From contig UBQX01000030.1 of assembly GCA_900467685.1 (NCBI GenBank), positions 1 through 38,667 of the forward strand: a stretch of 38,667 nt of DNA, read 5' to 3'. Shown here piece by piece: positions 21,305 through 24,721 of this stretch (position 1 is the first letter of the stretch; every line of letters begins with the position of its first letter). This DNA is from Hyphomicrobiales bacterium. GTDB lineage: Bacteria; Pseudomonadota; Alphaproteobacteria; Rhizobiales; Rhizobiaceae. Below the pieces are notes generated by a model that did no database searches, had not been told where the DNA came from, and was given only the letters and a program-made list of their open reading frames with translations. The position numbers were made by a program, and so were the translations under genes.

Positions 21305-21361
21305 TAGAGCCTTCCCCTACCAACACCCCCACATTGGGGCCCTTCACAATTGGGGAATGCC

Positions 21362-22249
21362 TTGAGCGAAGTCCGTCTCTACATCCACGCCACCGAAAAC
21401 GACTGCGCCCTCATCCTCGATCGCCTTGGCGCGATCTTCGAGGACGGCGAATATGCCGTGACGACGATGGAGATCGATGAGGCGAACAACGTCTGGGAAA
21501 CCGCCGTCTACACGATGATGGGCGACGAGGACGGCGCGAGAGCAGCTTTTGAACAGGCACTGGCATCGGACTTTGGGCATCTCGAGATCCAGCGCGAAGT
21601 GCTGCCGGATACCGACTGGGTGGCAAAGTCGCTGGATGGCCTGCAGCCGGTGCGCGCCGGCCGCTTCCTCGTGCACGGCTCGCATGACCGCGACCGCGTC
21701 ATGCCGGGTGATGTCGCGATCGAAATCGACGCCGGTCAGGCTTTCGGCACCGGCCATCACGGCACCACCGCCGGCTGCCTCGAAATGCTCGACTGGGTGC
21801 TGCGCTCCCGCAAGGTGAAGAACGCGCTCGACCTCGGCACCGGCAGCGGCGTGCTCGCCATTGCTGCGCGAAAGATCCAGCCTATTCCGGTTCTCGCCAC
21901 CGATATCGATCCGATCGCCACCCGCGTGGCGCAGGAAAATGCCCGCAAGAACGGCGTCGGCGCCGGCCTCCGCTTCGAGACCGCACCCGGCTTTCACCAC
22001 GGCGCCTTCCGCCGCAACGGCCCGTTCGACCTGATCATCGCCAACATCCTGGCCAAGCCCCTGATGAAGATGGCGCCCGATCTCGTTCGGCACCTCGTTC
22101 CCGGCGGCACCGTGATTCTCTCCGGCATCCTCGCCAGCCAGCGCCTGAAGGTTCTCGCTGCCTATAACGGCCAGCGCCTCGCCCACCGCCGCACCATCTG
22201 GCGCAACGGCTGGGTGACGATCGTCCTGGAACGCGGCGCTAAAAAATAA
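21362..22249 (+). CDS. prmA: ribosomal protein L11 methyltransferase
   Basis: PrmA (295 residues) trimethylates several amino groups of ribosomal protein L11 using S-adenosylmethionine. It has the short N-terminal L11-recognition domain (1-60), a linker, and the class I methyltransferase domain from about 115, with AGQAFGTGHHGTT, motif I ALDLGTGSGVLAIAA and the family motif DLIIANILAKPL. I place the start at TTG 21362, with GGGGA at 21352-21356, giving the usual SEVRLYI N-terminus; a TTG at 21350 would add four residues and overlaps that site. The gene is 57 bp after the SCO gene. In rhizobia prmA is often near the aminopeptidase P gene, as here. Confidence 0.94.
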   Translation: MSEVRLYIHATENDCALILDRLGAIFEDGEYAVTTMEIDEANNVWETAVYTMMGDEDGARAAFEQALASDFGHLEIQREVLPDTDWVAKSLDGLQPVRAGRFLVHGSHDRDRVMPGDVAIEIDAGQAFGTGHHGTTAGCLEMLDWVLRSRKVKNALDLGTGSGVLAIAARKIQPIPVLATDIDPIATRVAQENARKNGVGAGLRFETAPGFHHGAFRRNGPFDLIIANILAKPLMKMAPDLVRHLVPGGTVILSGILASQRLKVLAAYNGQRLAHRRTIWRNGWVTIVLERGAKK

Positions 22250-22319
22250 AGCAATTCAAGTGAGTTATGCAAGTTAAGCATGCCATCGGGCACGCACGAT
22301 TGTGCCTGCACGATTGAGA

Positions 22320-22343: not shown

Positions 22344-22387
22344 GACAAAGAAAAAGGGCGATGCCGGGAGGAGGTGGCATCGCCCTT
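22344..22387 (-). terminator. intrinsic terminator whose loop carries CCTCCTCCC
   Basis: On the minus strand AAGGGCGATGCC pairs perfectly with GGCATCGCCCTT (12 bp) around a 10-nt loop ACCTCCTCCC, then TTTTTCTTTG follows. It ends the minus-strand DUF1127/sRNA unit and is itself the third motif hairpin. Confidence 0.9.
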
Positions 22388-22487
22388 GGATCAGCTAGGC
22401 TGATCGTGTCCCGGCATTGGGAGGAGGAGGTGCCGGGAACAAACCAGTTTCGACATTGGCGCAGGATCTTGGGAGGAGGAGTGATCC
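22345..22487 (-). ncRNA. CcsR/'cuckoo'-type sRNA array: three hairpins with CCUCCUCCC loops
   Basis: Three stem-loops follow one another on the minus strand, each with CCTCCTCCC in the loop. The first has stem GGATC/GATCC (22483-22487 and 22464-22468), motif 22471-22479. The second has CCCGGCA/TGCCGGG (22431-22437 and 22410-22416), motif 22419-22427. The third is the terminator, motif 22366-22374. A further small hairpin GATCAGC-CTA-GCTGATC lies at 22389-22405 between the last two. Looped CCUCCUCCC hairpins downstream of a DUF1127 gene define the CcsR sRNAs of Rhodobacter (RpoH-dependent, stress-induced), and related 'cuckoo' RNAs occur across alphaproteobacteria. Processing of the DUF1127 mRNA into separate sRNAs is inferred from that model. 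Confidence 0.8.
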
Positions 22488-22515
22488 AACGCGGCCGAAA
22501 CAGGAACTAAAACAC

Positions 22516-22668
22516 TTAGAACGGGCCCCTGGTGAGACCTTCGCGAGATTTGCCGAGAGAGTTCAGGGCGAAATCGTCCATGCCGGCCAGAACGCGGGCG
22601 ACATTGCGCAGCGACTTGCGACCGCGCGGCATGTTCATGCCATTCATCGTCGAGCACAGGATGGACAT
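22516..22668 (-). CDS. small DUF1127-like basic protein (CcaF1-like)
   Basis: This 50-residue ORF reads MSILCSTMNG at the start, then a basic region and LRNVARVLAGMDDFALNSLG, KSREGL near the end. The pattern L-A-x-M-D-D-x-x-L-x-x-L-G-x-S-R matches the core of DUF1127 (YjiS), small arginine-rich proteins thought to bind RNA. In Rhodobacter the DUF1127 protein CcaF1 is made from the same transcript as the CcsR sRNAs and affects their maturation. Here the hairpins follow 29 bp after the stop. AAGG lies nine bases before the ATG. The short length makes the call dependent on this pattern and on context; it is too weak to be found by length alone. Confidence 0.75.
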   Translation of the reverse strand: MSILCSTMNGMNMPRGRKSLRNVARVLAGMDDFALNSLGKSREGLTRGPF

Positions 22669-22689: not shown

Positions 22690-22790
22690 CAGCACTTCTG
22701 CTTCGTTCGTTGATTTTTTTATAGCTCGAATTATTGCATCGCAACACAACGAATTGCTCATGGGAGCTATGCGTTTTTTGCATGAATTTG
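22690..22790 (-). promoter_or_regulatory. AT-rich promoter region of the DUF1127/sRNA unit
   Basis: On the minus strand this AT-rich stretch contains the dyad TTGCGATGCAA (22734-22744), whose TTGCGA could serve as a -35, then TATAAA 15 bp later (TATAAA at about 22718-22723). I could not fix a transcription start. A CTTGGA near 22819-22824 hints at an RpoH element, but the spacing to any -10 is poor. Confidence 0.35.
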
Positions 22791-22888
22791 ACTATCCGGT
22801 AAAAAAACACCCCCACTTCCAAGACTTGGCGTGTCGAGCAGGAATAGGCTAAACCTCGAAGCGATATCATCGATTGATCGGTCGCATC

Positions 22889-24721
22889 ATGTTCCAGAGC
22901 TTCGAAACCACCGCCAGCCCCGCAAACGGCGCACCCCGCGTTCAGGCGCTGAGAGAGCGCCTCGCAAGCCTGGACGTCGACGGGTTCCTCGTGCCCCGCG
23001 CCGACGATTATCAGGGCGAATATGTGCCGGCCTCTGCCGAACGTCTCGCCTGGCTCACCGGCTTCACCGGCTCGGCGGGCGCAGCACTCGTCGCGCCGCA
23101 CGTCGCCGTGGTCTTCGTGGACGGCCGCTATGTCACGCAACTGGCGCAGCAGACCGATCCGGAAGTCTTCACGCCCGGCGACCTCGTCAAGGAACCGCCT
23201 GCCGACTGGATTGCCCACCATGCCGGCCACGGCTTCCGCCTCGGCATCGATCCCTGGCTCCACACGATTGCGGAGGTCCGCAAGCTGAAGGCCGCGCTGG
23301 AGGCCAAGGGCGGAGCGCTGATCCTCCTTCCCGAAAACCCGCTTGACGCGCTCTGGTCCGACCGCCCCGCCGAACCGCTCGGCCGTGTCACCATCCAGAA
23401 GCACCAGCATTCCGGAACGCTCGCGCGCGACAAAATCGCAACGATTGCCGAAGGTCTCAAGACGCGCGGCACCGATGCCGTGCTGATTGCAGACCCCTCC
23501 TCCGTCGCCTGGGCTTTCAATATCCGGGGGTCGGATGTTCCCCACACGCCGCATCCGCTCGCCCGCGCCATCGTTCATGCCGACGGGCTCGCGGAGCTAT
23601 TCCTGGACGCGCGCAAGACCAGGATCGAGGAAAAGGCCTACCTCACCCAGATCTGCGAAATCCGCGAGCCGGCCGATTTGGCTGACACCCTGACCGCGCT
23701 CGGAAAGCGCGGTGCGTCGGTCGAGGTGGATGCAGGCATTGTCTCCTATGAACTCGTCCGCCTTATCGAAGAGGCAGGCGGCGCGATCAGGGAGGCCACC
23801 GACCCCTGCGCCCTGCCCCGCGCCACCAAGAACGAGGCCGAGCTTGCCGGCACCCGCGCCGCCCACATCCAGGACGGCGTGGCCATGGTCGAATTCCTCG
23901 CCTCGCTTGATCAGGCCGAGCCCGGTTCGCTGACGGAGATCGAGGCCGTCGAGCGTCTGGAAGCCTGCCGCCGCCGCGTGGGTGAGCGCATGCAGAACCC
24001 GCTCGCAGACATTTCCTTCGACACGATCTCGGGCGCAGGTCCGAACGGGGCGATCATCCACTATCGCGTCACCCGCGAGACAAACCGGAACCTGAAGCCG
24101 GGCGAGCTCTTCCTCGTCGATTCAGGCGGCCAGTATCGCAACGGCACGACCGACATCACCCGCACGGTCGCCATAGGCAATGTCGGCGAAACCGAGAAGC
24201 GCTTCTTCACGCTGGTTCTGAAGGGCATGATCGGTATCTCGACGGCCCGTTTCCCGGCGGGCTCCCGCGGCGTCGATCTCGATCCGCTGGCCCGCATCGC
24301 GCTATGGAGGGCGGGCGCAGATTACGGCCACGGCACCGGCCATGGCGTCGGCTCCTATCTTTCCGTGCATGAGGGCCCGCAGCGCATCTCTCGCGCCGCG
24401 ATGCAGGAGCTTCTGCCCGGCATGATCCTCTCCAACGAGCCGGGTTATTACAAGCCGGGCGCCTTTGGCATTCGCATCGAAAACCTGATCGTCGTCGAAG
24501 CCGCCAGCGAGATTGCAGGCGGCGATCGGCCGATGATGGGCTTCGAGACGATCACCTGGTGCCCCATCGACCGCCGGCTCGTCCTGCCGGACCTGATGAC
24601 GCGCGACGAGCTGGACTGGCTGAACGCCTATCACGCAACGACGCGGGAAAAGCTGATGCCCCTGATCGAGGATGCAAAGGTTCGCACCTGGCTGGACGAG
24701 GCCACCCGCCCAATCTCGTAA
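22889..24721 (+). CDS. pepP: aminopeptidase P family protein (M24B, long three-domain form)
   Basis: The enzyme (610 residues) is the long form, like eukaryotic XPNPEP1: two creatinase-like N-terminal domains (about 15-300) and a C-terminal pita-bread peptidase domain. It removes an N-terminal residue before proline. The two-metal ligands are visible: Asp411 and Asp422 (LVDSGGQYRNGTTDITRT), a His in GHGTGHGVGSYLSVHEGP, and two Glu in ILSNEPGYYKPGAFGIRIEN. The start is placed at ATG 22889, since related rhizobial proteins begin MFQSF; a TTG at 22874 would add five residues. Neither has a clear ribosome site. The gene is divergent from the DUF1127/sRNA unit. Confidence 0.93.
   Translation: MFQSFETTASPANGAPRVQALRERLASLDVDGFLVPRADDYQGEYVPASAERLAWLTGFTGSAGAALVAPHVAVVFVDGRYVTQLAQQTDPEVFTPGDLVKEPPADWIAHHAGHGFRLGIDPWLHTIAEVRKLKAALEAKGGALILLPENPLDALWSDRPAEPLGRVTIQKHQHSGTLARDKIATIAEGLKTRGTDAVLIADPSSVAWAFNIRGSDVPHTPHPLARAIVHADGLAELFLDARKTRIEEKAYLTQICEIREPADLADTLTALGKRGASVEVDAGIVSYELVRLIEEAGGAIREATDPCALPRATKNEAELAGTRAAHIQDGVAMVEFLASLDQAEPGSLTEIEAVERLEACRRRVGERMQNPLADISFDTISGAGPNGAIIHYRVTRETNRNLKPGELFLVDSGGQYRNGTTDITRTVAIGNVGETEKRFFTLVLKGMIGISTARFPAGSRGVDLDPLARIALWRAGADYGHGTGHGVGSYLSVHEGPQRISRAAMQELLPGMILSNEPGYYKPGAFGIRIENLIVVEAASEIAGGDRPMMGFETITWCPIDRRLVLPDLMTRDELDWLNAYHATTREKLMPLIEDAKVRTWLDEATRPIS

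Follow-up and report, generated by a model that had tools for sequence, protein, structure and literature searches.

Does the interval between two plus-strand genes encode a regulatory RNA on its minus strand, and if so, to which family would that RNA belong? In the window, by which we mean the whole 38,667-nucleotide stretch of DNA analyzed, a box, a -10-like element, a 50-aa ORF and four hairpins lie on the minus strand between prmA (21350-22249, plus strand), which was matched by NCBIfam at 454.8 bits with a cut-off of 244, and a gene termed pepP here (22874-24721, plus strand), which is Xaa-Pro peptidase-like and scored below every NCBIfam cut-off. A terminator-like hairpin was also seen on the plus strand after prmA (22297-22316).

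Loop motifs and predicted fold of the minus-strand RNA

The original prediction had described three successive minus-strand hairpins with CCUCCUCCC in their loops, and this description was borne out. The window holds just three exact matches to the 9-nt motif CCTCCTCCC, each of them minus-strand (22479-22471, 22427-22419 and 22374-22366) and located in a hairpin loop of the predicted fold. The number expected by chance in the window was 0.37, and three matches were reached in 0 of 100 shuffles. Across the genome, 53 matches to the motif were counted versus 64 for the reversed control, so that there is no genome-wide enrichment and it is the clustering which is the notable feature; other clusters were found on contigs C13 (three motifs), C34 (four) and C41 (three).

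Folding of the minus strand from 22515 to 22340 gave -70.1 kcal/mol, compared with -43.3 +/- 3.5 kcal/mol for shuffled sequences (z -7.7). Hairpin 1 (22444-22504, minus strand) is predicted to have a long bipartite stem, composed of an inner stem of 5 bp, a further 4 bp and an outer stem of 10 bp (22504-22444), with CUCCUCCUCCC in its loop, and hairpin 2 (22406-22440, minus strand) has 10 bp with a bulge and CCUCCUCCUCCC in its loop. The extra hairpin without the motif that had been proposed is present as GATCAGC-CTA-GCTGATC at 22405-22389 (GAUCAGC-CUA-GCUGAUC in the RNA; 22389-22405, minus strand), and directly precedes the terminator hairpin (22345-22387, minus strand), which carries the third CCUCCUCCC in its loop and is followed by a U-tract. 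While the proposed length of 12 bp was correct for the terminator stem (22387-22354), those of 5 and 7 bp given for the other two were too short, hairpin 1 being longer and hairpin 2 having 10 bp with its bulge. A terminator scan of the minus strand, which accepted loops of up to 8 nt, found none, the terminator loop here being 10 nt. In hairpin 1, the 5' arm together with the loop (22490-22471, minus strand; UUGGAUCACUCCUCCUCCC) bears what we take to be a likeness to the 3' end of 16S rRNA. Among congeners this 5' arm was observed to vary.

With respect to loop conservation in close relatives, which had been set beforehand as one of two checks on which the proposal should stand or fall, each of the three 9-nt motifs was found in six of six species of the genus. 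Invariant columns in the genus alignment, a comparison of six sequences only and therefore of small counts, amounted to 25 of 27 in the loops versus 54 of 96 at paired positions, and to 27 of 27 versus 82 of 96 when the most divergent (sixth) species was left out. Changes on both sides were observed in 9 of 48 pairs, a number as high as this being obtained in 0 of 500 shuffles, with 2 to 5 such pairs in the slid controls. In hairpin 1, compensatory change was seen at five of nine pairs of the inner helix, which had 75.9% of cells paired; the outer helix had 96.7% of cells paired, and the values for all helices other than the inner one ranged from 89.8 to 100%. Hairpin 2 is near-identical in five species and has another stem in the sixth, the seven pairs of the motif-less hairpin are all invariant over the six species, and 12 of 12 terminator pairs are formed in each.

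Relation to ar14 copies and to RNAs beside prmA

At gathering scores no Rfam family matched in the window. At lax thresholds the ar14 model (RF02344) aligned end to end with 52.8 bits (E 1e-8), below its cut-off of 58.8, and the predicted folds contain the three hairpins with CCUCCUCCC unpaired in each that ar14 is recognized by. A plain ar14 copy was rejected on this score. Three loci of the genome, on C13 (109.8 bits), C34 (108.5 bits) and C41 (96.5 bits), are over the cut-off and true ar14 loci. One of these (C34, 66108-66574) is a cluster of four motifs with a true DUF1127 gene upstream, an arrangement of the CIN1 type, and another (C13, 52071-53159) is located upstream of two consecutive DUF1127 genes.

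It is unlikely that the window RNA is a decayed or extra ar14/NfeR1 duplicate which came to lie here by chance, as might be supposed from the end-to-end alignment to the ar14 model, from the ar14-like loops and motif-bearing terminator, and from the presence of true ar14 loci in the same genome. Against such a duplicate, each of the six genomes of the genus has ar14 loci that pass the cut-off, two or three in number, plus one sub-threshold copy (49.9 to 55.5 bits with the ar14 model across the six species), and in the five congeners this copy is found between prmA and pepP, both on one strand. The additional hairpin with its seven invariant pairs likewise argues against a duplicate, as does the distribution of the RNA beyond the genus. 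A scan with PrmA gave 299 relatives, of which the best 80 were used, four of them from the window's genus (L060-L063). prmA and pepP lie on one strand in 78 of these 80 loci, with prmA alone in L098 and L130. Among these best 80 of 299, an RNA with changed stems was found beside prmA in 73 of the 76 named rhizobial loci outside the genus, 66 by the signature of hairpin 2, six by a full-length match to the model R1 and one (L113) by a partial R1 match; the other three were L120 and L130, where R1 gave no match, and L098, a short contig outside the R1 search. Hairpin 1 is without the motif in one of the 66 signature loci (L086).

R1 is a covariance model built from 24 prmA loci of other genera, none of them from the window's genus. 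It found the window at 22517-22349 with 56.8 bits (E 7.7e-13) and five of five congeners with 52.5 to 68.1 bits, but in the same search none of the three ar14 loci of this genome was matched at E <= 10. These data indicate that the window RNA is kin to the RNA of prmA loci and is not a recent ar14 copy. Judged from its sequence, that is from the R1 score, the place adjacent to prmA, the motif-less hairpin and a box at about -71, it is an orthologue of the prmA-adjacent rhizobial RNA. S. meliloti 4H41 also carries the RNA (L064), the ar14 model giving 15.3 bits there. On 20 of the 80 prmA loci, Rfam at gathering scores returned no sRNA family, the lone match being a tRNA. When 41 genomes of the GTDB family, which is wide as drawn by GTDB, were searched with R1 under strict filters, matches were obtained in seven, of which one without the motif (G174) was judged false, leaving six, two of them of this genus. 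An order-wide search of 150 genomes gave three matches, one judged false, and as only 19 candidates per genome were scored these numbers are no evidence of absence.

The form of the RNA differs outside the genus. There it consists of a long-stem motif hairpin, a motif hairpin with the arms CCCGCUUGAGC...GCUCGCGGG, a motif-less hairpin and a terminator of the form GGCGGUGC-loop-GCACCGCC. Other genera thus have two anti-SD hairpins and a motif-free terminator, and the window's genus adds a third motif in the terminator loop. In all 66 signature loci outside the genus (among the best 80 of 299), the stretch of 95 nt that follows hairpin 2 was free of any anti-SD 7-mer, so the earlier claim that loops are kept while stems are free to change was upheld across genera for hairpins 1 and 2 but not for the terminator. 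In the alignment of other genera, compensatory change was observed at 13 of 26 modelled pairs, and the counterpart of the motif-less hairpin in 24 loci of other genera showed it at six of six pairs. Hairpin 1 could not be aligned across these genera and was for this reason omitted by RNAalifold; its presence there is predicted from single-sequence folds. Such folds were made for 69 RNAs (64 of the 66 signature loci, four of the genus and the window) and left 98.8% of motif bases unpaired versus 30.8% for the rest, with 136 of 143 motif runs in hairpin loops; as the loci were picked by the arms of hairpin 2, that hairpin is partly there through their selection. The terminator stem of the genus (GGGCGAUGCC/GGCAUCGCCC) resembles that of S. 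meliloti (AGGCGAUGC/GCAUCGCCU), the UUCG loop being replaced by ACCUCCUCCC. On the PrmA tree, where the window's genus branches first, the terminator-loop trait corresponds to one change, of either direction. At one locus near pepP (L145, G014), CACCTCCTCCC was seen directly after a terminator-like hairpin and is a possible single-stranded third motif.

Promoter region, small ORF and proposed function

In excerpts of PMC10746234, the LsrB-binding motif TGCA-N6-GCAT is placed at -72 to -60 of the NfeR1 promoter. An exact match, TGCA-AAAAAC-GCAT, is located at 22769-22782 on the minus strand, about 71 nt before the predicted start, and a predicted -10 element, CTATAA (22719-22724, minus strand), follows with no good -35. 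A sigma-70 consensus scan found no promoter on either strand, which would be compatible with an activator-dependent promoter. All six species of the genus have the TGCA-N6-GCAT box, as do 49 of the 70 RNA-bearing loci, where 0.86 would be expected; four of these 49 are of this genus. [CT]TATA[AT] occurs 43 or 44 nt after the box in 46 of the 49 box-bearing loci and nowhere else within 80 nt. The pattern GCATnnCnnCnATG was present in 64 of the 70 loci with 0.23 expected, an excess which is descriptive, the pattern having been drawn up after the sequences were viewed. The VtlR form GCAT-N3-TG-N3-T (PMC7486931, in part) is matched in the window with one mismatch and was not enriched, with three of 70 loci versus 2.0 expected.

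Genome-wide, the box with its flank had 29 matches versus four for the reversed control, so that the box pattern alone is unspecific, and two more of the 29 lie elsewhere in this window. Four of the matches precede anti-SD RNAs, namely the window RNA, two of the three ar14 loci (no box was found upstream of the C13 locus) and a match to the ar15 (AbcR-type) model. The latter (C17, 145091-145190; 109.4 bits) starts 71 nt after the same TGCA-N6-GCAT box. AbcR1 is named as a target of LsrB/VtlR in the excerpts consulted of PMC10746234 and PMC7486931. When lsrB was sought beside the ar15 gene, as in S. meliloti, inspection by eye gave no LysR-like ORF there. By its match to the motif, the window box is a putative LsrB site.

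The 50-aa ORF (22516-22668 including the stop, minus strand) lies upstream of the hairpins on the same predicted transcript. In six of six species of the genus the reading frame is retained with a length of 48-50 aa, and dN was lower than dS in 14 of 15 pairs. DUF1127 was not matched in the window protein by Pfam or NCBIfam, nor in nine relatives by Pfam, and a genome-wide DUF1127 search gave nothing at the place of this ORF. An hhalign comparison with three DUF1127 proteins of the genome (probability 51, E 1.6e-4, 23 C-terminal columns) is a weak hint of what may be remote kinship. The ORF not being DUF1127 by Pfam or NCBIfam, its likeness to CIN1 is one of arrangement. Among 67 loci with box and RNA, an ATG ORF of at least 25 aa lies between the two in 46 and none does in 21, of which 18 are from Sinorhizobium/Ensifer and the others are L088, L105 and L110. 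In S. meliloti no ORF was detected. Conversely, a similar ORF apparently lies between prmA and pepP in three distant genera (L038, L039 and L040; E 0.02 to 0.07), and CTCCTCC is absent from both strands of these three loci. RNA and ORF are therefore each separable from the other.

Most likely, the locus encodes an LsrB-activated sRNA which is made together with the 50-aa ORF and silences mRNAs through base pairing to their Shine-Dalgarno sequences, a reading built on the sequence, predicted structure and compensatory change, on synteny and covariance-model orthology, on the box with its spacing, on ORF conservation, and on analogy to NfeR1. An LsrB-type activator-dependent promoter would start a minus-strand transcript of about 365 nt, predicted to run from about 22711 to 22345, which would encode the 50-aa small protein and end at the intrinsic terminator. 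Its 3' part, presumably released by cleavage from the mRNA and further processed, would act in trans as an anti-Shine-Dalgarno sRNA whose three hairpins offer CCUCCUCCC unpaired, the third seed lying, in this genus, in the terminator loop. Each loop would pair with the Shine-Dalgarno region of an mRNA, block the ribosome and bring about decay, as in NfeR1, and by the same analogy several mRNAs would be expected to be blocked. For NfeR1, excerpts of PMC10746234 describe three redundant loops which silence ntrB by covering its start region.

Perfect Shine-Dalgarno complements before an ATG numbered nine in the genome versus two for the reversed pattern. As leads only, four of the nine (GGGAGGAGG) lie 6-8 nt before ORFs of more than 200 aa (L152, L153, L154 and L156) and are candidate targets; two of these ORFs look, by eye, like an enoyl-CoA hydratase and an AMP-dependent ligase.

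Structure at the 3' end gives mRNAs protection. The main product could accordingly be imagined to be the 50-aa protein, with the hairpins as a stabilizing 3' UTR and terminator that have no function in trans, and the weak purifying selection on the ORF and the similar ORF apparently present in three distant genomes without the motif would agree with this. We consider it improbable, as 21 of the 67 loci with box and RNA have no ORF of at least 25 aa in between, and as a protective hairpin needs no constant loop, whereas all three motifs persist across six species with varying stems. Very improbable indeed is a role of the loops as mimics of the 16S rRNA 3' end which, instead of pairing with mRNA, bind a protein or titrate it, for while the motif is the anti-SD sequence and CcaF1, a small DUF1127 protein made with the CcsR RNAs, binds RNA (PMC10253847, in part), NfeR1 mutated at its three loops lost ntrB silencing (PMC10746234, in part), and here there was no sign of a protein partner, the local ORF not being DUF1127 by Pfam.

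Comparison with known anti-SD RNA systems

Returning to the anti-SD sRNA as the preferred reading, a broader proposal is put forward tentatively, with slightly less than even confidence: the RNAs beside prmA in many rhizobia may constitute an undescribed family of their own, consisting of anti-SD sRNAs under LsrB control and separate from both alpha-r14 and CcsR, in which the ORF can be lost and, in one genus, the terminator doubles as a third regulatory arm. A literature search by gene name, sequence and regulator found no description of the locus; supplements lay outside its scope, and a name may exist. One sRNA catalogue checked for the neighbor genes had no mention of them, and a term search of PMC2780559 gave no matches. 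The literature basis also comprised parts of PMC3927594 (section 2.7), PMC12218461, PMC11975290, PMC12501420 and PMC2873474.

NfeR1 and AbcR are described in excerpts of PMC10746234 and PMC7143759 as anti-SD sRNAs that control rhizobial uptake and nitrogen metabolism. If the proposal is true, at least three structurally different anti-SD families, the present one together with AbcR and alpha-r14, would be under one redox-linked regulator. If there is a further family with the same type of box, S. meliloti included, knock-outs of NfeR1 or AbcR would keep a partly redundant arm. A natural comparison is also on offer, between RNAs with two and with three seeds and between loci with and without the ORF, for the roles of seed number and of the small protein.

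The closest resemblance is to known rhizobial and Rhodobacter RNAs of the same kind. With alpha-r14/NfeR1 (Smr14C2, SmelC397; RF02344) the window RNA shares three hairpins with CCUCCUCCC in the loop, divergent stems, a motif in the terminator loop and an LsrB-type box. In contrast to alpha-r14/NfeR1, it scores 6 bits below the gathering score, has an extra motif-less hairpin, follows an ORF and adjoins prmA, and the prmA-locus model R1 misses the genome's own ar14 loci. CcsR1-4 of Rhodobacter sphaeroides (RF02791), which are made with CcaF1, are alike in having multiple CCUCCUCCC hairpins after a small ORF. The label of CcsR/cuckoo RNA given in the original prediction held for the kind of RNA, a multi-hairpin anti-SD RNA, but not for CcsR proper: the CcsR1 model scored 24.2 and 13.1 bits on the window with a cut-off of 65.3, and the ORF is without Pfam DUF1127. 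A plain CcsR/CIN1 locus was rejected as a candidate on these two grounds, the score being far under the cut-off. As to promoters, CcsR is transcribed from an RpoHI/RpoHII promoter according to excerpts of PMC10253847, and the window has an LsrB-type box. As regards the cuckoo family, the window RNA has consecutive anti-SD hairpins with variable stems, as the family is defined in the parts consulted of the papers that describe or cite it; SmelA075 and SmelA099 (Reinkensmeier 2011, in part) are alike in that the anti-SD hairpins vary in number and in their stems and that a genome holds several copies. Finally, AbcR/alpha-r15 (RF02345) is alike in that the ar15 match of this genome has the same box at 71 nt and one CCTCCTCCC, but its structure differs, and the local ar15 gene fits its own Rfam model at 109.4 bits.
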